This document shows, in pieces, positions 5,913 to 20,729 of a stretch of DNA of 29,185 nt; the first letter of the stretch is position 1, and each line of letters starts with the position of its first letter. Origin of the DNA: a virus; the IMG/VR virus record IMGVR_UViG_3300009094_000056, positions 1 to 29,185 of that record; one strand, written 5' to 3'. A model generated the notes under the pieces. That model searched no databases. It was not told the DNA's origin and saw only the letters and a program-made list of their open reading frames with translations. Made by a program: the position numbers and the translations under genes.

Positions 5913-7193
5913 ATGGCTCTAACAGAGACGCAGGTAGTTGCTGCTGAACTGGAAACAGTCCAGAGCAAAGTGCCCGTCCTGTTCGACCGCGATTCGCTTT
6001 TCTATGGCAACATCGAGAAGCGTGACGTTGAGAAGGTTTCGAATCGGGATATGAGAGTCCCGATGGAAATCCGACCCGGTGGACGGTTCGGTTACTTCTC
6101 TCCGGATGGCGGCGACCTGGGACGCGGCGATGGTCAGTCGTTCGAGAAGGCTCTCGTCTCCACTGTTCACATGAAGCACGGTGTGGAGTGGCAGAAGCGA
6201 GCACAGTGGGCCACCGACGATACGAGGAAGTCGGTTGTCAATGCTTTCCGGCAACTCTTGGCCAAGGCGATGGCAGAGTTCCGGCGTCAGGTCGATTCCA
6301 GCCTCATGACCGGGGGAAATGGTGCAGTCGCGACCATTACCTCGGTTGCAACTGCGGGTGGTCAGGATACCTTTACCTGCACCACGGACGGATTCGGTGT
6401 TCGTCTCCTCCGATATGGACAGTTCGTGTCGGTTTACGACGCCGCTTTCGCCGCTGCCAAGGTCATTGCACCCTCGGCTGGAGCCGCTCTTGTCGGAACT
6501 GCCGCGCAGATCGATTTGGTGGATTATGCGGCAAAGACATTCCGAATCAAGGGAGCCACAACGACGCCCGTCGCTGGTGACAGGATCGTTATCGAAGGGC
6601 TATCTGGGGCCAACCCAATCGCTCTGCTTGGCGTTCCCTACCATCACAACAACGCTTCGACTGGGACTTGGCTGGGATTGGACCGAGCACAGTTTCCAGA
6701 GATTCGCGCCTCCCGTGTTGCGGCGGCTGGTCCGTTGGCACCTGCACACGCGCGAGTTGCTCTGAACCGTATTGGCGACCGTATCGGACTCGATAACGGC
6801 GTCAAGGTTCAGGCCTGGATGCATCCCTGTCAGGTTCAGTCCTACGAGGAACTGGGACAGGCGGTGCAGGTCGTCAATCGGAATGGCGGCTCGCAGCAGG
6901 GTCTCGACCTCTATTTCGACGTTCAGCAAATCGCCGGTGCTCCTATCCGGCGATCGTATTCGTGGGACAAGACGCGCATCGACTTCATCGTTGGAGAGGT
7001 TTGGGGTCGTGCAGAAATGCATCCCGCAGGCTTCTACGAGGAAGAGGGGCGGCGTTTGTTCGAACTCCGAGGTGCTTCGGGTGGCGTTGCGACGGCAACG
7101 ATCTTCTACCTGACCGCCTCGTTCAATACCTTCATCAACAACCCGGCTTCGTGCAGCTACATCGATACCCTGACGGTCCCGTCGGGCTATTGA
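5913..7193 (+). CDS. Major capsid protein
   Basis: A 426-residue coat protein, well within the size range of HK97-fold capsid subunits. The N-terminal part (QVVAAELETVQSKVPVLFD, then RDMRVPMEIRPGGRFGYF, then DGGDLGRGDG) is of the kind seen in many podovirus-like coat proteins. A long helix with WQKRAQWATDDTRKSV and FRQLLAKAMAEFRRQVD corresponds to the spine helix. Residues about 140-235 (TITSVATAGGQDTFTC to AGDRIVIEGLSG) look like a beta-rich inserted domain, similar in place to the P22 coat insertion. It has a good ribosome site (AGGAG, 5899-5903), a structured leader and its own terminator, consistent with high expression. Base composition is GC-rich relative to the fibre genes. Confidence 0.88.
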   Translation: MALTETQVVAAELETVQSKVPVLFDRDSLFYGNIEKRDVEKVSNRDMRVPMEIRPGGRFGYFSPDGGDLGRGDGQSFEKALVSTVHMKHGVEWQKRAQWATDDTRKSVVNAFRQLLAKAMAEFRRQVDSSLMTGGNGAVATITSVATAGGQDTFTCTTDGFGVRLLRYGQFVSVYDAAFAAAKVIAPSAGAALVGTAAQIDLVDYAAKTFRIKGATTTPVAGDRIVIEGLSGANPIALLGVPYHHNNASTGTWLGLDRAQFPEIRASRVAAAGPLAPAHARVALNRIGDRIGLDNGVKVQAWMHPCQVQSYEELGQAVQVVNRNGGSQQGLDLYFDVQQIAGAPIRRSYSWDKTRIDFIVGEVWGRAEMHPAGFYEEEGRRLFELRGASGGVATATIFYLTASFNTFINNPASCSYIDTLTVPSGY

Positions 7194-10300: not shown

Positions 10301-12169
10301 ATGAGCCTGCGGGACCACGACCCGATTTCGTTCAATCAGTTCCGCGGCACCTTCGACCGGGGGGAGGACGAATCCGTCCCTCCGGGTTTTTTCAAGGCGT
10401 CGAGGAACATTCAGTTCATTAATCAGGGTGTTAAGACTCGCGACGGAAGTTCAATCGACACGTCGGAGACCGGACCTATTCGACGGATTGCTATCTATAA
10501 GAGGATAGGCGAGGTCGCCCGTCTCCTCATTCTCAATTCTTCTGGGGTCCTCTACGATTCCATAACTCATGTTGCCATCTTAAATATACCAGCGATGGTA
10601 GATTTCTCGATGGTCAGCATGTTCAACCGAGCTTACATCACTCCACATAATGGTTTTAAAGGTCTTCCCGGAGAGAAACTTTATGTGTATGAGGGATCGG
10701 GAGTTGCACGACCAGCTGGTGGAACAGCGCCGCCTCCAGTTGGAATGGTTGCGGCAGAGGGAGCAGCGGGCAACTTCGACGCGGGCATTCATCTTTTCGC
10801 AGTTGCGTTTGAGACTGCATCAGGATACATTACGCCATTCGGCTCTTCTTGTGCGCTCTCCTCTGAATCCGGAGGAAAGAAAGTAGATCTTTCCGCTATT
10901 CCTGTCGGGCCTGCTGGAACCGTCGCGCGCGTTTTGGTGGGAACGAAGGATGTAGCAGTCAATGGAGTCTTCTCCGGGGATTATAACAACCAGACCTGGT
11001 ATGTAATCCCGGATGGACGGATTCCTGACAATTCTACTACGACGAAAACGGTAAGCTACTTCGACGCCGACCTCCAAGCAGACATTTCCTACCTCCTGGA
11101 GCAGCTGGGATCTATTCCCGCTGGAGTAGGAGTCAATATTTATCGAGGCCGCCTAATTATTTGGGGAGAAGATGTCAACGAATCAATCGTTAGAGCTTCA
11201 GCCATTGGACAACCGGAGTCCTTTGACGAGGCCGATGGCTTCGCTACCATCAATCCCGGCGATAGTGGCGGTGGTGTCCGATACTGCTTTGAGTATCGAA
11301 CTCAGCTTATTTGTTGCAAGTCTCAAAGATCCTACATTACGCAGGATAATGGAGATAATGCAGGATTCTGGAAAGTTGACGCTCTCGATAAAAGTGTCGG
11401 GACCGAATGTCACGGAGTTGGAAAAATTCTCGACTTTGGGGAGGACGTTCGAGACCGCACCTTCATCGCCGATAGGAGTGGGCTTCAGCTTTATACTGGA
11501 ACTTTCTCCGACACTGAGGTCACCAGCAACATCTCCGACATCTGGGACCGAATAAACAAGAAGGTTTTCCACAAGGTTGAAGTATCTGTAGATCCCCTGA
11601 AAGGTTTAACCTATGTGGCTTGTCCTCTTGATACAGCATCGGAGAATAACGCCATCATCGTTGTGGACTGGTCCGAGGGTCTCACAGTTGAGGATATTCG
11701 ATTCACCGTTTGGGAGTTTCCATACCGACCGCAGACTGTTGTCGTCGACGTGAATGAAGCGGATAAAGAATCGGTCATGAAGTTTGCTGGCCTCGATTCT
11801 CCATCTGTATTCAAGATTGTTGAGGATCTCAAGCTCGATAATAACCTTGCTATCGACACCTGGGTGGAGTTTCCCCTTCTTCCGCAAGATGACGATTGGC
11901 CTGTCAATCACTTCACCGGATTTCGCGCGCGAATTAAGGGGATTGGCTACCTCCTCATAAACCTGACGAGCCTCGATGATGCACAGCAGGTTATAGTTCC
12001 TCCGGTTACTCTGAACCCTCTTCCCGGACGCCCGATCTTCCGAGGTTTCAACTTCACTTCGGAAAGATGTTCGGTAAAGCTGAGGACCAATCAGGCTGGG
12101 AACTACTTCTCGATGACGAATTTCAATCTCTATTACAAGTTGCTCTGGTCAACTAGGGTTGAAGGATGA
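10301..12169 (+). CDS. Large neck/tail protein, nozzle-like
   Basis: A 622-residue beta-rich protein. The N-terminus (DPISFNQFRGTFDRGEDESV and FKASRNIQFINQGVKTRDGS) resembles the start of podovirus nozzle/tail-hub proteins, where a short arm meets a beta-propeller body; several blade-like units follow (for example RLLILNSSGVLYDSITH and RTFIADRSGLQLYTGTFSD). In podoviruses this kind of protein forms the tube below the adaptor and is the attachment point for fibres. The gene lies one base after the previous stop and overlaps the next by 4 bp (ATGA). No membrane segment or peptidase motif is visible. The exact family is uncertain, but the conserved start and position support a core tail part. 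Confidence 0.6.
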   Translation: MSLRDHDPISFNQFRGTFDRGEDESVPPGFFKASRNIQFINQGVKTRDGSSIDTSETGPIRRIAIYKRIGEVARLLILNSSGVLYDSITHVAILNIPAMVDFSMVSMFNRAYITPHNGFKGLPGEKLYVYEGSGVARPAGGTAPPPVGMVAAEGAAGNFDAGIHLFAVAFETASGYITPFGSSCALSSESGGKKVDLSAIPVGPAGTVARVLVGTKDVAVNGVFSGDYNNQTWYVIPDGRIPDNSTTTKTVSYFDADLQADISYLLEQLGSIPAGVGVNIYRGRLIIWGEDVNESIVRASAIGQPESFDEADGFATINPGDSGGGVRYCFEYRTQLICCKSQRSYITQDNGDNAGFWKVDALDKSVGTECHGVGKILDFGEDVRDRTFIADRSGLQLYTGTFSDTEVTSNISDIWDRINKKVFHKVEVSVDPLKGLTYVACPLDTASENNAIIVVDWSEGLTVEDIRFTVWEFPYRPQTVVVDVNEADKESVMKFAGLDSPSVFKIVEDLKLDNNLAIDTWVEFPLLPQDDDWPVNHFTGFRARIKGIGYLLINLTSLDDAQQVIVPPVTLNPLPGRPIFRGFNFTSERCSVKLRTNQAGNYFSMTNFNLYYKLLWSTRVEG

Positions 12170-13623
12170 GCGAGATTGATACTCAGGCGCTGCTTGGAGA
12201 CATTGAGTCAGAGCTCCGTAAACAGCATATCGATGTTCAGGGACTAATCCAAGGAATCCAGCTTGAGAATCCACGGCTCTATCAAATCCTGATGGAGCTA
12301 AATGGTGGCCTTCTTTCTGTTCAGGAGGAGATTTTTCCTCTTATCATCAAGGATAGGCTTCCGACTAATATCGCTGGAATTCTCCCAGCTCCTCCATCCT
12401 TTACCTTCGCATTTCAGCCGACTTCGGTTCGTTTCTTCTGGTCGCAGGTAGAACAGGCTTTTGGTTATGAAATTCGAGAAGGCTTACTCTGGGATACTGC
12501 AACTTTCCGAGTTCGCACAGCTTCTTTGCAAGTGGATCTCGATGCTCTTTTATCTGGTTCCTACTACTTTCTCATTAAGACCATAAACTCAGCGGGTGAG
12601 TATTCAGATGATCCCCGTTCCATTCTGGTCGATGTTCCAGCAATATCCTCTGTCATCCTTGCGCGTGAGGTCATCGATAATAACGTTCTTCTGAGATGGA
12701 CTCTTCCATCTTCGACCTTTCGAATTCTCTATTACGAAGTTTCTAAGTCTGGGGTCGTAATCGCACAGGTGGACTCCACCTTCTTTTCAACCTTTGAGAA
12801 CGTCGCAGGCACGTATGTCTATTCTGTCCTTGCGGTCGATGTGGCTGGTAATCGAGGGGCACCTGCGGATATTACCGTTCAAGTTGCCTCCCCTCCGGAT
12901 TACGCGCTTCAGGATAAAAGGACTTCCCAGCTTCTTGGTCCTCGTGTCGACCTAATTCGGCAACCAGCTATTCCCTCCCTCCTTGGTCCTTGGTTCCCGA
13001 CGACTTGGGAGGAGCATTTCGTTAATAATAACTGGGACCAGATTTCGGACCAGCTAGAGGCTGATTACACGATCTACATTCAGCCTACAGACCTGAATGG
13101 AACTTACGAGGAATACATAGACTACGGAACGGTGATCTCGAATGTCATCGTAACCGTAGCTTTCAATTTCAATCTCATCGTCCAGGATGTTGCCGTAACT
13201 ATCGAGATGTCCTCGTCGCTAGACAATGCAACTTGGACTCCGGTGGTCTCTGGTGCGAGTCAATATTTTCCTAGTTTGAGACACCTTTATCTTCGTCTCA
13301 AATGGGATGCACTAGATGACAGAAGTCTCCTAGAACTCTGGCATCTTACCATTTCTATTTCGGTTAAGCGGGAGAACGATGGTGGTGAGGTTTACGCAAC
13401 TTACAACGCTGTTGATGATCCAGGGACCTACGTCGCGTTTACTAAACCTTTCAAAGACGTGGAATCCATCACTTGCACCACAAAGTCTGTTACGGAGCCT
13501 TTCTACGCAATCTTTGACTTCGCGGATGTTCCTAACCCTCTTGGTTTCTCCGTCTACGTCTTTGACTCCTCGGGAAATCGAGTGAAGCGGACGGTGGACT
13601 GGAAAGCTCGGGGCATAGTTTAG
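12166..13623 (+). CDS. Tail protein with fibronectin type III-like domains
   Basis: A 485-residue protein coupled by ATGA to the previous gene. After a helical start (ALLGDIESELRKQHIDVQGL) there are two fibronectin III-like units: about residues 70-160 (VRFFWSQVEQAFGYEIREG to YYFLIKTINSAGEYSDDP) and 165-245 (NVLLRWTLPSSTFRILYYEV to YVYSVLAVDVAGNRGAPADI). The second half is beta-rich and ends with a strand pattern typical of distal tail domains. Such domains are common in phage tail and host-contact proteins. The helical N-terminus may dock it to the tail hub. Receptor specificity cannot be read from the sequence. Confidence 0.65.
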   Translation: MSEIDTQALLGDIESELRKQHIDVQGLIQGIQLENPRLYQILMELNGGLLSVQEEIFPLIIKDRLPTNIAGILPAPPSFTFAFQPTSVRFFWSQVEQAFGYEIREGLLWDTATFRVRTASLQVDLDALLSGSYYFLIKTINSAGEYSDDPRSILVDVPAISSVILAREVIDNNVLLRWTLPSSTFRILYYEVSKSGVVIAQVDSTFFSTFENVAGTYVYSVLAVDVAGNRGAPADITVQVASPPDYALQDKRTSQLLGPRVDLIRQPAIPSLLGPWFPTTWEEHFVNNNWDQISDQLEADYTIYIQPTDLNGTYEEYIDYGTVISNVIVTVAFNFNLIVQDVAVTIEMSSSLDNATWTPVVSGASQYFPSLRHLYLRLKWDALDDRSLLELWHLTISISVKRENDGGEVYATYNAVDDPGTYVAFTKPFKDVESITCTTKSVTEPFYAIFDFADVPNPLGFSVYVFDSSGNRVKRTVDWKARGIV

Positions 13624-13626
13624 ACC

Positions 13627-15060
13627 ATGTGGCAAAGATATAACCAAGGAAGTCACATCTTCGAGAAGTCCCTCGACAATGGTGCGAGCTGGGTTCCGAT
13701 GCCGATTAATGCGTCGAGTTTGGAAGGGACTGCTCCCCCCGGAGTTGTTCCCCCACTACCTGCAAACATTGCGTATACGAATGTCGCTAATAGTTTTATC
13801 AAGCGACAGACAATTACTCCAGCAGATACTGATGGACCTAGTCCTTATTATGCTTTGGAGGTAAGAGGACCGGCTGTTCTAAATGGTGCTCATGCAGGTA
13901 TTATCTTCAATCAGCCAAATCAAGCAATTGATGCTAAGAAATTTCGTATTATCAGCTATGCTGATCATCTCCGATTCGAGGCTGTAGCTGATTCTGAAGG
14001 CTCCACTATAGGAGGTGAGACTTTTCTAGACCGAGCTGGTAACTTTACAGTAGCTAATAATCTCAAGGCAGGATCTTTTATCGTTGCTGGAACTTGTGTT
14101 AGGGCTGTTGGTGCTCGTGGTGCGCCACCTTCTACTGGTGGTGGGATTGAACTATTTTTCCAGAGTGGAAGTGGTTATCTTCACGGGTATAACATTACTA
14201 CATCAAGTTATACTCCCATAATAATTTATGGGGAGGGCGTTAGGATAGGCCGAGGCGACCTCTACGTGGATGGTGGAGGCGCACAAGTCTTTGGGCCTAT
14301 ATATCCTGGTCGATATGATACAACCTGGGGGATTCAAACTAGTTGGTATCTTGCCTCTCACGGATCATATGGACTATTTAGCAATACTGGTCTGTATCTA
14401 AGTGGTGGATTGACGGTAGTTTCTACGTCGAATTTTATTGGCTTAATCAGATTAGCGTGCGACGTCTGGCATATTAGTGGTGAGGGTAATCAACGCCTTC
14501 ATTTCACGACGAGTGGCATCACTTACATTCAAGGCAGCGGCATCACCTTTCGGAATAATGCTCAGGTCGATACCTTCATCGTAGATTCTGGTGGAAATGC
14601 CAACTGTGGCGGAGTCTTTAAGTGTGGATGGGGATACGCTTGTCGTGCGGGTGTCTATGGAGCCTACAGCGGGAATTATTTCAACTACCAATGGACTGGC
14701 GCGATTCAGTGCTGGATTGACGCGAGCTACTTCGGAGATATTACGTTAGCCTCCGATGCACGACTCAAACGGGATTTCACGCCTCTGGTAGGTAGTCTTG
14801 ATAAAGTGCTTCAGATGCGTCCTGGCACCTTCTATTTCAAACCAATGAGCGAGGATGCTGAGGCTGATCCCCATCTTCGACTTGGTTTACTTGCGCAGGA
14901 TGTGCAGGAGGTTGCTCCAGAGCTAGTTCGTAATACTGGAATGAAGACCTACCTGACTCCAGATGGTCTTCAGCAAATCAATTACCTTGAAATGATACCG
15001 ATGTTGGTCGCCGCCATTAAGGAACTAAATCAGAAAGTAGAGGAGAAATGGAAGAACTAG
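13627..15060 (+). CDS. Tail fibre/spike with C-terminal S74 self-cleaving chaperone
   Basis: A 477-residue fibre. The C-terminal 102 residues match the peptidase S74 (endosialidase-type) intramolecular chaperone: ASDARLKRDF with the cleavage Ser at 376 and the catalytic Lys at 381, then LRLGLLAQDVQEVAPELV and INYLEMIPMLVAAIKELNQ ending in a coiled coil. This domain helps the trimer fold and then cuts itself off. The body is a Gly/Ser/Thr-rich beta structure with many short repeats; the N-terminus (KSLDNGASWVPMPINAS) probably attaches it to the tail. The middle is clearly AT-richer than the capsid genes (line 14041-14100 has 22 G/C in 60 against 37 in 60 at 6301-6360), a sign of exchange. Confidence 0.85.
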   Translation: MWQRYNQGSHIFEKSLDNGASWVPMPINASSLEGTAPPGVVPPLPANIAYTNVANSFIKRQTITPADTDGPSPYYALEVRGPAVLNGAHAGIIFNQPNQAIDAKKFRIISYADHLRFEAVADSEGSTIGGETFLDRAGNFTVANNLKAGSFIVAGTCVRAVGARGAPPSTGGGIELFFQSGSGYLHGYNITTSSYTPIIIYGEGVRIGRGDLYVDGGGAQVFGPIYPGRYDTTWGIQTSWYLASHGSYGLFSNTGLYLSGGLTVVSTSNFIGLIRLACDVWHISGEGNQRLHFTTSGITYIQGSGITFRNNAQVDTFIVDSGGNANCGGVFKCGWGYACRAGVYGAYSGNYFNYQWTGAIQCWIDASYFGDITLASDARLKRDFTPLVGSLDKVLQMRPGTFYFKPMSEDAEADPHLRLGLLAQDVQEVAPELVRNTGMKTYLTPDGLQQINYLEMIPMLVAAIKELNQKVEEKWKN

Positions 15061-15398: not shown

Positions 15399-15582
15399 AC
15401 TTCCGCGTCAAGAAATTACCCTCGATGAACTCTACGCAATCATAGGAGAACTTGACGTTGTTCGTCGGAAGATGACTCAGCAACTTCAGCAACTCTACAA
15501 GCAGGTCGATGAGATGGCGCAAGAAATTGCCACGCTGAGGAACAAAGATGGCGGACTGGCTCAAGCCGACAATTACAAGTAA
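15391..15582 (+). CDS. Short coiled-coil protein
   Basis: A 63-residue protein that overlaps the previous gene by 8 bp and the next by 35 bp. Residues about 8-52 form one long heptad-like helix (LDELYAIIGELDVVRRKMTQ, then LYKQVDEMAQEIATLR), as in trimeric or dimeric coiled coils. Short coiled-coil proteins next to fibre genes can be fibre connectors or chaperones, and in some phages a similar small ORF lies before lysis genes; neither is shown here. Confidence 0.6.
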   Translation: MNELPRQEITLDELYAIIGELDVVRRKMTQQLQQLYKQVDEMAQEIATLRNKDGGLAQADNYK

Positions 15583-16177
15583 TTACGTTACCTTCGTCGA
15601 TGAGGTGAAGGACCGTGATTTCGATGCTATCTCTCTGCAATACAATGCGCTCGTAAATCCCCCGAACGCCTCGGTGAAGCTCGTTCGAAGCCCTGTCAAA
15701 TTCCAGCAATGGATGACGGGAGCTTGGAACGAGCTGACCCTATCTGTAGAAGGCGGGGGAACTGGGGCGACCTCGATTGCAGGCATTCGGACAGCTATTG
15801 GCCTTGGGTCGATGGCTTACCAGAATTCCAATGCGATTGCAGTTACGGGAGGGACGATAGCCAACATCTCCTCAGGTGGTTCTTATTTTAACCATCAGGG
15901 TGGGACGATGACTGTTCTTACTCCCACCATAGCGGGTCATAGCCTGACAGTAAATGCGCCCTCGAATAGTTACGTTGGTATATTAGTTCAAGGGCCTTCT
16001 GGACCAACCTCTCACGGGCTTGCGATTTCTGCGGGTGCGAACCATAACGACTTCCCTCTTATCATCCGAAACTACAATAACACCACAGAGATAATGAGAG
16101 TTACAGGCTTGGGATCTGTCTGGATTCCCGGCACTTTCGCTATTCCCGTAGGCGCAGATAAATGGGTTCCTTGGTAA
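15548..16177 (+). CDS. Short tail fibre/spike-like protein
   Basis: A 209-residue protein. Residues about 70-105 hold the familiar fibre linker GGGTGATSIAGIRTAIGLGS followed by an ITGG-like stretch (IAVTGGTIANI), which is typical of phage tail fibres. The rest is Gly/Ser/Asn-rich beta sequence. The first 60 residues (TITSNYVTFVDEVKDRDFDA) may be the tail-binding part. Its TAA is followed immediately by the ATG of the His-rich gene, so these are in one transcript. It may anchor or pair with the His-rich protein, which is inference. Confidence 0.7.
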   Translation: MADWLKPTITSNYVTFVDEVKDRDFDAISLQYNALVNPPNASVKLVRSPVKFQQWMTGAWNELTLSVEGGGTGATSIAGIRTAIGLGSMAYQNSNAIAVTGGTIANISSGGSYFNHQGGTMTVLTPTIAGHSLTVNAPSNSYVGILVQGPSGPTSHGLAISAGANHNDFPLIIRNYNNTTEIMRVTGLGSVWIPGTFAIPVGADKWVPW

Positions 16178-17092
16178 ATGGCTAAGAGACCCGGCTCCCT
16201 TTGGGTTGAAGGCAACAACCTTAACTACGTAGATGCCTCCTCTAGGGAGTGGTCCTATGCTGGCACATTCATCAAGAGTATAGGATTCGCTCGTCCTGGC
16301 TCTCTATGGGTAGAGGGTTATTACATCTACTACGTCAACGAAGCTGGCAACACCGTCTTTAGACTAGAGGCCGTTTGGAATGGTGAGTATCATGGGAGAA
16401 CGGGAAGCCTCTGGGTCGAAGGGGATAAGCTTCGCCATATTGGAGGAGGAGAGGCTGCAGAGTTCCATGCTCATTCTGATATTACCCATCAAAACGTAGC
16501 TCATACAGATACCGGAATCGCTACTCACACCAACACTCATACAAACATTGGGCATCAAAACGTTGCTCACGTCAATTATCATCAAAACGTAGCTCACGTA
16601 AATACACACACGAATTACGAGCACGCGAATTATCATGGAGACACTCATACTAACATCGCACATACGGATGAGTGGGCTGTTCTGGAGCATGGGGATACGC
16701 ATTCCAACATTACTCCTTATAGTTATCATCATGCAGATTGTTGGCGCTACGATCGGGGCACTGTAATTGACCATCACGACCATCAGGATTGGCCGGGTTA
16801 TCCCCATAATGATGGTTACGTCTTTCAGGATCACTGTGATTGGCACGATAACCTAGCTCATGCGAATAACCATTACGACTCACCGGGTCAGGCCGCGCAC
16901 ACCAATTATCACGGAAACGTAGATCATCAGAACTACTACACTCAAGTCGCGCACACAAATAATCATGGGGACACGCATACGGATATTGCTCACAGCGATG
17001 TTCCTCATGCGAATCATAACGACACGATTCACCAAAATGTCGCCCATGCGAATGTCACTCATCAGGATCAGCCGGTTCTCATAGGACTCTAA
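16178..17092 (+). CDS. His-Xaa-[Asn/Asp] repeat protein, candidate radical SAM substrate
   Basis: A 304-residue protein in two parts. Residues 4-96 hold three units of about 35 residues, each opening with R(P/T)GSLWVEG at 4, 39 and 74, likely a small beta domain that anchors it to the tail. Residues 97-295 contain 39 His, of which 36 are followed by any residue and then Asn or Asp, spaced mostly 4-5 residues apart. HQNVAH occurs four times (104, 126, 135, 285) with different codons, and HGDTHTNIAHTD is echoed as HGDTHTDIAHSD, so the protein pattern is selected and old. Only two Cys (188, 220) lie in the region. The gene overlaps the radical SAM gene by one base. Either a modified fibre, a metal-binding shaft, or both; no similar family is known to me by name. 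Confidence 0.75.
   Translation: MAKRPGSLWVEGNNLNYVDASSREWSYAGTFIKSIGFARPGSLWVEGYYIYYVNEAGNTVFRLEAVWNGEYHGRTGSLWVEGDKLRHIGGGEAAEFHAHSDITHQNVAHTDTGIATHTNTHTNIGHQNVAHVNYHQNVAHVNTHTNYEHANYHGDTHTNIAHTDEWAVLEHGDTHSNITPYSYHHADCWRYDRGTVIDHHDHQDWPGYPHNDGYVFQDHCDWHDNLAHANNHYDSPGQAAHTNYHGNVDHQNYYTQVAHTNNHGDTHTDIAHSDVPHANHNDTIHQNVAHANVTHQDQPVLIGL
16187..16423 (+). repeat. Three PGSLWVEG units (35-residue period)
   Basis: Encodes R(P/T)GSLWVEG at residues 4-12, 39-47 and 74-82 of the His-rich protein. Each is followed by a strand ending in Tyr-Val or His-Ile. The DNA of the three copies differs at many third positions, so they are not a recent duplication. Confidence 0.85.
16466..17062 (+). repeat. His-Xaa-[Asn/Asp] repeat region
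   Basis: Encodes residues 97-295 of the His-rich protein. His makes up about one in five residues, and 36 of 39 fit His-Xaa-[Asn/Asp]; the exceptions are His97, His184 and His200. Synonymous codon differences between copies of HQNVAH (16487, 16553, 16580, 17030) show selection on the protein. Confidence 0.9.
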
Positions 17093-18306
17093 TGACTGTC
17101 GAATATCTTCCCGTTGGTATCGCCTGCAACATCGCATGCAAATACTGCTATCAGGAATCGCAGAGAGATGCAGGCAATATCAACACGCCGCGAGACTGGG
17201 ACCGGGTGAAGTTTCAACTCGACCGTCTTGGAGTCGACTTTGCAGTTTTTGGTGGTGAGCCTCTCCTCACTCCGATGGTGCACCTCGAAGAAGTATTTAA
17301 GTATGGCTTCGAGAAGCACGGTAGGAACGGGATTCAGACGAACGGATCTCTCATCACCGATGAACACATCGAGATGTTTTACAAGTATAAGGTCCACGTA
17401 GGAATCTCGATAGATGGCCCCGGTGAGCTGAATAGTGTTCGCTGCACGAACGATTTGACTGCTAAGACAGAGCTTGCGATCAAGAAGCTATGTGATCGGG
17501 GAATCCCTCCATCCCTTATCATGACGATCCATAAAGGGAATAATGATATTCCTGCTCTCACTCGCTGGCTTGATAGTCTTATGTCTATCGGGCTACGCTA
17601 CGTTAACTTCCACGAAATGGAGCAGGAGTGCGGACAAGAGCAAGAAGCACTCTCCGAGGAAGATAACATAAAGAATTTCCTCGCTCTCTATGAATGGACG
17701 AAGCGTTCTAAGGTTCACGCAAACCCGTTCGTCGACATTCAATCCCTCCTCACCGAAGAACAACCGAGAGCGAACTGTGTCTGGCATAACTGTGACCCTC
17801 AGACGACCGAAGCGGTCCAAGGAATAAGTCCCGATGGTTCGATGTCAAATTGCGGTCGAGCTTACAAAGACGGGGTCAACTGGCTTAAAGCTGACACTCC
17901 CGGCTACGAGCGATATATCGCGCTTTATCACACTCCTCAAGAGTTTGGAGGGTGTAAAGACTGTAAATATTTCGCTTTCTGCAAAGGGCAGTGTCCTGGA
18001 ACTGCTATCGGAGGAGATTGGAGAAACCGAAGTCTAGAATGCCGTCTTTGGTATTCACTCTTCGAAACGATTGCGGCCGACAATAAAGACAAGCTGCTCT
18101 CTCCTGAGATAGTAGATAGGAAGGTTCAGGATCTCCTTGGTCGCTGGAGTGTTCCACAGAATACAGACCACGGAGATAAGCACGGAGATTCTCCCCACGG
18201 GGACCAGCATGGAGATCATACCGACTACGGTCCTGGCGTCGAAGCAGAATTCTTAACAGAGAGACCAGAATGGCTACAGCAACCGGAAGAAAGCAAGAGC
18301 GTTTAG
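17092..18306 (+). CDS. Radical SAM/SPASM maturase with HGD-repeat tail
   Basis: A 404-residue radical SAM enzyme. The CxxxCxxC cluster is Cys12/Cys16/Cys19 (CNIACKYC), the SAM-binding GGEP is at 54-57, and a TNGSLI segment near 83 fits the barrel. A SPASM region follows: Cys229, Cys234, Cys254, then Cys288-x2-Cys291-x5-Cys297-x3-Cys301 and Cys317, enough for two auxiliary iron-sulphur clusters. SPASM enzymes of this type usually modify peptides (crosslinks, epimerisation or decarboxylation). The tail at 360-377 has HGD four times and HTD once, matching the repeat of the neighbouring protein. It overlaps the His-rich gene by 1 bp and the next gene by 37 bp. A role in modifying the His-rich protein is inferred from context. 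Confidence 0.88.
   Translation: MTVEYLPVGIACNIACKYCYQESQRDAGNINTPRDWDRVKFQLDRLGVDFAVFGGEPLLTPMVHLEEVFKYGFEKHGRNGIQTNGSLITDEHIEMFYKYKVHVGISIDGPGELNSVRCTNDLTAKTELAIKKLCDRGIPPSLIMTIHKGNNDIPALTRWLDSLMSIGLRYVNFHEMEQECGQEQEALSEEDNIKNFLALYEWTKRSKVHANPFVDIQSLLTEEQPRANCVWHNCDPQTTEAVQGISPDGSMSNCGRAYKDGVNWLKADTPGYERYIALYHTPQEFGGCKDCKYFAFCKGQCPGTAIGGDWRNRSLECRLWYSLFETIAADNKDKLLSPEIVDRKVQDLLGRWSVPQNTDHGDKHGDSPHGDQHGDHTDYGPGVEAEFLTERPEWLQQPEESKSV
18169..18222 (+). repeat. HGD-type repeat tail of the radical SAM enzyme
   Basis: Encodes residues 360-377 of the enzyme: five His units, all His-Xaa-Asp, followed by YGPG. The same His-Xaa-Asp/Asn unit fills the neighbouring substrate candidate. It may be a substrate mimic, a tether or a metal-binding tail. 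Confidence 0.85.
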
Positions 18307-19649: not shown

Positions 19650-20349
19650 CATGAGTCGTTGTCCGCAAACTGAACCTGAGGCGCTCGATTGGTTCTATAA
19701 GGGAATCGGTCGAGTGATGGGTTCATCGGCGAGTGATTGGGAGCAGGTCATGACGAATTGTGGCCTCCCTCCCGGTTACGGTCCTGGGGTCGTTCCGAAT
19801 GCGTTGATGCCCTTCTTCGCATTCACACAGCAGTTCTCAGGAGGCCCGAAGGGTCGTATCTTCCTCCCGACTGATCGACCCGACGAACTCGGTTACTACA
19901 CCCGTTGTATCCAGTATCTCGACGATGCCGCAGGAACCTACTCCAAAGCAGTCTCTGACGCAGCTCGCGCAAAGAAGCCAGTTCCGGAGATTGACTTCCA
20001 GAAGGCAGCCAAATCTGGAGGACTTGTATGGGCCTGGTATTGGGTCGCTGGAAACGAATACGTTCCGGTCCAGGACGAGAGCGGATCAGGAGGCGGAGAA
20101 CTCCCTCCTCAGGGAGGTCTATCAGCAGAAGAAGTCCAGGCAATGATCGATGCCTCCTTGAATCCGATCTACGCCATGATGGAAGGGGCACTGAAGATCG
20201 GGGACAAGATCGCTCTCAAGACGAACTCTGGAATGCTTGCGGGTATCGAGGGTGGTGGACCAACTGTGGTGGACCAGCCGGTGAAGCTCATCGGTAAGCC
20301 TGAACCTCCCCACGCATGGGAGTCGTTTGAAATCGTCAAGGGGGAATGA
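19639..20349 (+). CDS. Tail-region protein with C-terminal beta-trefoil-like lobe
   Basis: A 236-residue protein overlapping the methyltransferase gene by 11 bp, with GGAGAG upstream of the ATG. Residues about 1-145 are a globular unknown with several Trp/Tyr (GLVWAWYWVAGNEYVP). A Gly-rich linker (GSGGGELPPQGG) leads to a helix with EEVQAMIDASLNPIYAMMEG and then GDKIALKTNSGMLAGIEGGG with AWESFEIV at the end, the pattern of one lobe of a fascin-like beta-trefoil. Such lobes bind sugars or proteins, and a trimer would give a complete trefoil. It may be a host-contact or fibre-tip protein. The fold call is from the short motif only. Confidence 0.55.
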   Translation: MPFDMSRCPQTEPEALDWFYKGIGRVMGSSASDWEQVMTNCGLPPGYGPGVVPNALMPFFAFTQQFSGGPKGRIFLPTDRPDELGYYTRCIQYLDDAAGTYSKAVSDAARAKKPVPEIDFQKAAKSGGLVWAWYWVAGNEYVPVQDESGSGGGELPPQGGLSAEEVQAMIDASLNPIYAMMEGALKIGDKIALKTNSGMLAGIEGGGPTVVDQPVKLIGKPEPPHAWESFEIVKGE

Positions 20350-20729
20350 AGATTCGTCCTTTCCAAGATAGCGACATACCCGAAATTGACGCTATCTGGA
20401 AAAAGCACCATAGCGACAACTTTTCTGTGCCGAATCGCTCTACCCGATTAGTAGAATGGGTAGCCGAGGAGGACGGGAGGGTTGTCGCTTATGGTCAAGT
20501 TAAGCTCTTTGCAGAAGCTATCATCATCCTCGACCTAGATGCCTCGCAACGTGCTAAGGTAGTTGCTCTGAAAAGCCTTCTCCTTGAAGCTTTTAGAGGT
20601 GCTGATTTAGCAGGTCTTGAGGATCTTCATTGTTTCGTGCAAGATCCAGCCTTCGCAACTCTCCTCATCAATCATTTTGGTTTCGAATCCAGAGAAGATC
20701 CTGGAGAACTCCTTACTAGGAAGGTGTAA
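20346..20729 (+). CDS. GNAT-like protein, acetyl-CoA motif degenerate
   Basis: A 127-residue protein that starts like GNAT N-acetyltransferases (IRPFQDSDIPEIDAIWKKHH, then VEWVAEEDGRVVAYGQVKLF), with strand-helix order of the fold and a C-terminal NHFGFE segment. The acetyl-CoA loop (R/Q-x-x-G-x-G/A) is not seen where expected, where ASQRAKVVALKSLL lies, so activity is doubtful. Its ATG overlaps the previous stop (ATGA), and its TAA is one base before the next ATG. Similar small GNAT-like ORFs sit in podovirus late regions. It may be a folding or structural remnant of the enzyme. Confidence 0.55.
   Translation: MKIRPFQDSDIPEIDAIWKKHHSDNFSVPNRSTRLVEWVAEEDGRVVAYGQVKLFAEAIIILDLDASQRAKVVALKSLLLEAFRGADLAGLEDLHCFVQDPAFATLLINHFGFESREDPGELLTRKV

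Follow-up and report, generated by a model that had tools for sequence, protein, structure and literature searches.

The window, a viral contig of 29,185 nucleotides (IMG/VR record IMGVR_UViG_3300009094_000056), contains a gene for a 304-residue His-rich protein, directly followed by the gene of a radical SAM/SPASM enzyme and then by that of a DUF483-like protein fused to a methyltransferase domain. The features of these genes are collected in Table 1. The start codon of the enzyme gene overlaps the stop codon of the His-rich gene by one base (TAATG). Upstream, the two genes at 12166–15060 matched phage tail and tail-fibre families, and 5913–7193 had a weak match to a major head protein. The C-terminal signature AIPVGADKWVPW of the protein encoded immediately before the His-rich gene preceded the corresponding gene in 15 further loci and was fused ahead of the His-rich region in five loci; the BLASTP comparison of this product with one fused counterpart was weak (E 0.088) and gave no firm tie. 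Downstream, the product of the small gene at 20346–20729, which has some resemblance to a GNAT acetyltransferase, had no Pfam match. An ORF resembling this product was also observed downstream of the same three genes in contig L004.

Table 1. Features of the His-rich gene and its neighbours in the window.
Feature	Positions	Strand	Basis
Tail-fibre-like protein, 209 aa, ending AIPVGADKWVPW	15548–16177	+	Weak PHROG tail fibre match, E 0.009
Array protein, 304 aa	16178–17092	+	ORF; candidate multi-site substrate
N-terminal beta domain, three RPGSLWVEG-type repeats (residues 1–102)	16178–16483	+	AlphaFold2 pLDDT about 71–94 by blocks
H-x-[N/D] array, 36 motifs (residues 99–297)	16472–17068	+	H and D/N conserved; x and linkers variable
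C-terminal strand HQDQPVLIGL (residues 295–304)	17060–17089	+	Predicted packing on the N-terminal domain
Radical SAM/SPASM enzyme, 404 aa	17092–18306	+	PF04055, E 1.5e-16; CxxxCxxC and full SPASM cysteine pattern
CNIACKYC radical SAM cluster motif (residues 12–19)	17125–17148	+	Cysteines invariant in 6 aligned enzymes
SPASM cysteines (residues 234–317)	17791–18042	+	Invariant in 6 aligned enzymes
HGD/HTD motifs, the enzyme's own C-terminal tail (residues 360–378)	18169–18225	+	Sequence motif
DUF483-like protein fused to a class I SAM methyltransferase domain, 459 aa	18270–19649	+	Pfam below cut-off; AlphaFold2

The distribution of His was evaluated in 16466–17062 (+ strand), which corresponds to residues 97–295 of the ORF. 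This stretch has 39 His, and the second residue after His is Asn or Asp in 35 cases (Asn 20, Asp 15). In 5000 shuffles of the same residues, the mean number of His-x-[N/D] was 8.6 and the maximum was 17, whereas Asn or Asp at +1, +3, +4 and +5 was at or below expectation. The sequence-only reading, which had pointed out Asn or Asp two residues after His, was correct on this point. Its count of HxH was likewise confirmed: the motif occurs exactly twice, at residues 97–99 and 200–202, and this number is below the shuffle mean of 7.4, in agreement with the view that the pattern is distinct from HxH iron sites. The fibre tip of T4 gp37 binds iron through HxH. The window array resembles such tips in being a His-rich phage fibre protein and differs from them in its motif, its pairing with an enzyme and its substitutions. 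That reading had also described a His at every 4–5 residues, which is frequent (25 of the 38 His–His gaps) without being a fixed lattice; the gaps were 5 (14 cases), 4 (11), 9 (5) and other lengths (8). The array is built from H-x-[N/D] triplets at irregular distances rather than on a fixed lattice of 4–5 residues. The 36 motifs of the gene are encoded by 30 different 9-mers, and Tandem Repeats Finder gave a single match within the gene, with two copies of 25 bases; hence, the array is not a DNA microsatellite or tandem repeat. The array protein belonged to no Pfam (searched up to E 0.1), NCBIfam or PHROG family. Antisense ORFs overlie the array stretch, as expected from the repeated codon pattern.

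The motif rule was derived from 49 non-redundant arrays, reduced to 46 after the Phe-rich arrays of loci L046 and L053 were dropped, with the region of each array set by H-x-[DN] only. Asp or Asn was found at +2 for 1484 of 1510 His (Asp 1425, Asn 59); Glu was never found there (0/1510) and Ser twice (2/1510). The same position was occupied by Asp or Asn after 44 of 117 Phe, 71 of 207 Tyr and 13 of 46 Trp. The corresponding values were 0/23 for Met, 10/107 for Leu, 22/438 for Val and 7/34 for Arg, and roughly 0–11% for other residues. When the His pairs were kept fixed in 1000 shuffles, the mean for FYW-x-[DN] was 30.9 and the maximum 51, compared with 128 observed, whereas the 53 LIVM-x-[DN] observed were close to their mean of 55.6, indicating no preference of the aliphatic residues. 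Moreover, among the 479 Asp/Asn lacking a His partner, Phe, Tyr or Trp stood at −2 in 128 cases, as against 17–44 at six other offsets. Since Phe, Tyr and Trp share the preference of His for Asp/Asn at +2 and the aliphatic residues do not, the recognised site would be aromatic-x-Asp/Asn. One comparison counts against this rule: at the His columns of the 16-row alignment, in which gap placement is uncertain, the non-His residues were mainly non-aromatic, with 9 of 24 being aromatic.

When the window array was compared with its 15 relatives, His and Asp/Asn were largely preserved (36/36 and 35/36, respectively, in the closest). In distant relatives, Asp and Asn were exchanged at about half of the positions, and the middle residue and the linkers varied freely. 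The gaps in the 46 arrays were 3 (162), 4 (356), 5 (543) and 6 (106) residues, plus longer ones. The pattern is kept in relatives. The spacing of 4–5 residues, whose loss in relatives was one half of the refuting condition set by the sequence-only reading, is loosely kept, so that this half gave no result against that reading.

The structure of the array protein was predicted with AlphaFold2 as a single unmodified chain from a shallow alignment of 16 rows. Residues 1–101 and 296–304 formed a small ordered beta domain, whereas residues 102–295 had a pLDDT of about 33 and no order in this model. The C-terminal ending is kept in most of the 16 rows. Because the C-terminal strand is predicted to pack on the N-terminal domain, the array would become a loop, and we read it as about 200 residues leading out of and back into the small beta domain. 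The fold search with the array protein gave no convincing structural relative; the best structural match of the N-terminal domain, the lectin-like mannose-binding bacteriocin LlpA, had a Z of 3.8 and was too weak to name the domain. In a viral structure library, the only strong match to the array protein was one unnamed protein of 342 residues. In other phages, the array forms the C-terminal part of a protein of 700–1200 residues. Of six array proteins compared with PHROGs, that of L021 matched a virion structural family, that of L025 matched a family of unknown function only, and the other four had no match. The idea of a His/Asn/Asp ladder along a fibre was supported as far as the tail-fibre region is concerned, given the tail matches at 12166–15060; the ordered beta-helix that it assumed was not found in the model of residues 102–295, and the structural half of the refuting condition thus came out against it. 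The predicted disorder and the many gaps of 5 are also what would be expected of an unmodified repeat fold or low-complexity spacer, such as a pentapeptide-like solenoid or a flexible linker. This explanation is highly improbable, because the gaps vary (3 to 6 residues and longer), no repeat family was matched in Pfam, and under neutral drift His and Asp/Asn would not be preserved while the middle residue changes.

The enzyme encoded next to the array was compared with curated families. Its best NCBIfam scores included those of AmcB (cyclophane) and DynA (dynobactin), and all were far below the curated cut-offs; AmcB scored 81.5 bits against a cut-off of 425, and GrrM/OscB, XyeB and YhhB were lower still. 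The score of the sulfatase maturase family was nearly equal to those of AmcB and DynA, and the nearest solved relative was an anaerobic sulfatase-maturating enzyme. On the evidence of motifs, the enzyme appears cyclophane-like, and it lies outside every curated cyclophane family. The array motif is repeated in the enzyme itself. Downstream of the SPASM region, 42 of 68 family enzymes had at least two H-x-[DN] motifs, compared with none of 60 distant radical SAM controls; this HxD tail was absent from part of the freshwater-type group L027–L050 and from most chromosomal members. The motifs in the tail may be modified by the enzyme itself, or they may occupy its substrate site. At L011:8001–9197 and L060:8001–8766, the enzyme ORF was found in pieces, reflecting either sequencing error or decay.

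The association of array and enzyme was explored in both directions. A profile of six enzymes was used to search for relatives, giving 55 viral loci and 11 close genome loci. The 70 family loci comprised the window, three Thermus phages (phiMa, Cumys and phiLo), and the 55 viral and 11 genome contigs; L001–L005 were left out as repeats of L009–L011, L014 and the window, and near-identical contigs remain among the 70. An array was defined, before any result was seen, by at least 8 motifs and a density above 0.03. At this threshold, an HxD/HxN array was present in 51 of the 70 family loci and in none of 69 distant radical SAM loci from the same search, and a DUF483 homologue was present in 65 of the 70 and again in none of the 69. 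Array and enzyme were at most 30 bases apart in 33 of 50 pairs. Two more family loci had arrays below the threshold, namely L036, with 41 motifs spread over a protein of 1471 residues, and L046, with Phe-x-Asn/Asp. The latter array, at L046:2908–3945, has 39 Phe-x-Asn/Asp and 6 His-x-Asp/Asn and represents a natural swap of the aromatic residue. At L053:6768–14132, two radical SAM ORFs and one DUF483 ORF were observed together with two arrays in which HxD and FxN are mixed. Of the remaining 17 family loci, 11 were on contigs that run out near the enzyme, in the direction in which the array was expected. The fetched DNA of L040 and of five chromosomal loci (L068, L070, L071, L073 and L136, with L071 cut shortly downstream) had no array. 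These six are either genuine exceptions or cases in which the enzyme serves another purpose, and in view of them the radical SAM/DUF483 pair may have other substrates too. In five bacterial genome contigs (L064, L065, L066, L069 and L072), short HxD-rich ORFs of 69–237 residues were seen near the enzyme, some of which resemble precursor peptides more than tail proteins. Among chromosomes, the module seems to be rare; in 297 genomes of the phylum of L064, no further member was found, the one match being the starting genome.

For the reverse direction, viral contigs were scanned with a DNA pattern for four H-x-D triplets spaced five residues apart, which gave at least 120 stretches. Before any rule was written, 39 stretches were picked by eye and 34 of them had the enzyme, although at least 6 of these 34 enzyme-positive records were already known from the profile search and some stretches came from near-identical phages; 50 of the rest were tested and none had it. 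A true array was then defined, after these first tests, by at least 12 motifs in frame and at least 70% distinct 15-mers. Among the 120 stretches listed, this rule picked 38 true arrays, and the enzyme was in the record of 33 of them; for the true arrays with at least 20 motifs, the number was 28 of 29. The other 82 stretches listed were represented by 51 that were tested, and the single one with the enzyme was a true array just under the rule. Taken together, the forward and reverse counts indicate that prediction works equally well in both directions, from array to enzyme and from enzyme to array. It is very probable that the array is the substrate of the neighbouring radical SAM enzyme.

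These results also bear on the metal-loaded shaft proposed by the sequence-only reading, in which unmodified His and Asp/Asn would bind metal along a fibre. The very high content of His and Asp/Asn and the tail-fibre context are in line with such a shaft. However, the position of His can be taken by Phe, Tyr and Trp, which are poor ligands or not ligands at all, and the replacement is almost complete in L046. Furthermore, Glu never stands at +2, the radical SAM enzyme is a constant partner, and AlphaFold2 gave no ordered model of the array in its single unmodified chain. Metal loading of the unmodified protein is thus very unlikely, while metal binding by a modified array is possible.

The third gene of the module was characterised by its predicted structure. 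The AlphaFold2 model of the 459-residue partner had a pLDDT of 89, and its C-terminal half matched NodS with a Z of 16.2, which firmly places this half among the class I SAM methyltransferases. The structural search gave no named fold for the DUF483 half, the methyltransferase half having filled the match list, and the partner had no sequence match among solved structures.

The host on which the three Thermus phages of the family were isolated is T. thermophilus HB8. One point against modification of the array by a radical SAM enzyme is that such enzymes are sensitive to oxygen, whereas Thermus is grown in air. The radical SAM module printed for Cumys and phiMa is the same module as that of the window, and the gene before their radical SAM gene is an HxD array. 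The relevant passages of the 2024 report on Thermus phages (PMC11437467) left this gene without a function and suggested DNA modification, and the words histidine and His-rich are absent from its main text. Among the open-access papers searched, none linking such arrays to the radical SAM enzyme was found, and the passages on Campylobacter phages and pelagimyophages that deal with their radical SAM genes (PMC2853527, PMC7029224) do not describe the array system. If the radical SAM/DUF483 pair modified DNA, the array gene would be a mere neighbour. Such a role would suit the related pairs that adjoin deazapurine genes in cyanobacteria, according to the passages on them in PMC11437467, and the chromosomal pairs that occur without an array. 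It is nevertheless extremely improbable, given that the reverse search ties the array to the enzyme, that just 3 of the 50 family records, a set with many fragments, encode QueC, and that the array motif recurs in enzyme tails. In addition, peptides are the typical substrates of SPASM radical SAM enzymes.

The aromatic-x-Asp/Asn triplet corresponds to the i/i+2 signature of the three-residue cyclophanes made by radical SAM enzymes, and the array was hence read as a substrate with many sites. Precedents for such linkages are given in the sections of PMC11002830 on these enzymes and include the joining of Trp to the beta carbon of Asn/Asp by OscB, of Phe to that of Asn by XncB and OscB, of Tyr to that of Asp by YxdB, and of His to that of Ala by HaaB or of Arg by YhhB. 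In these triceptide systems, as in the window, a SPASM radical SAM enzyme is encoded beside its substrate gene, the aromatic residue is at i and the target at i+2, and an Asn/Asp target and a His partner each have a precedent (PMC11002830, same sections). The window system differs in that its substrate is a 304-residue phage tail-type protein with tens of motifs and its partner is a DUF483 protein; the pair His-Asp is not among the examples in those sections of PMC11002830, and the window enzyme passes no curated cut-off. The His-Xaa-Ser (Hxs) systems, as described in part of PMC9062424, also combine a repeated His-Xaa-X motif with radical SAM enzymes, whereas the array has Asp/Asn in place of Ser at +2. 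Families of the HxsB/HxsC type were absent from the best 25 of 62 and the best 25 of 45 NCBIfam families. The poly-cyclopropylglycine peptide system TvgA/TvgB, which is treated in the same part of PMC9062424, is similar in that a radical SAM enzyme modifies a repeated motif many times, and it differs in its TVGG motif, its peptide product and its chemistry.

Our best overall explanation, which is reasonably favoured by the evidence, is a multi-site substrate in a tail-fibre protein that is stapled by the enzyme of the next gene. According to this mechanism, the phage radical SAM/SPASM enzyme would recognise aromatic-x-Asp/Asn triplets, mostly with His and at times with Phe, Tyr or Trp, and would abstract a hydrogen from the beta carbon of Asp/Asn. 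This carbon would then be joined to the aromatic ring two residues earlier, leading to a row of three-residue cyclophane rings. With up to about 36 motifs in the window, the rings would rigidify the loop of about 200 residues, and the stiffened loop would probably serve stability or receptor contact at the tail, a benefit to the phage that we infer. The DUF483-methyltransferase partner may assist the enzyme or add a second modification.

The product of array modification is probably, though by no means surely, a cyclophane. The same pairing of array and enzyme would also be seen if H-x-D/N were modified by other chemistry, such as a bond between a ring nitrogen and the beta carbon, hydroxylation, epimerisation, or formation of a product that the methyltransferase completes. 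The dynobactin enzyme connects the beta carbon of Tyr through a C–N link to a ring nitrogen of the His that stands two positions from it (PMC11002830, in its section on that enzyme), and the window has a methyltransferase domain fused to DUF483. However, a ring-nitrogen or His-specific product is impossible for Phe, which nonetheless takes the first position, and cross-linking at the beta carbon best fits the invariable distance of two residues and the restriction to Asp/Asn. Other chemistry is therefore rather unlikely, at perhaps one case in a few, and cross-linking into cyclophanes is retained as the preferred reading.

There is about an even chance that a widespread class of phages builds a tail part from a ribosomal, enzymatically stapled polymer, in which a phage radical SAM enzyme, together with its DUF483 partner, introduces tens of aromatic-x-Asp/Asn cyclophane rings per structural protein. 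If this is true, the virion would contain a material with intrachain carbon–carbon cross-links, and radical SAM chemistry would extend from small peptides to viral structure. Phage tails would then hold a very heavily cross-linked ribosomal product, and the enzyme would provide a means of stapling a single long protein at many sites. Stability or contact with the host may also be accounted for by the stapled loop. A module whose function was left open in print would thereby be given a specific role, as an alternative to the printed suggestion of DNA modification.
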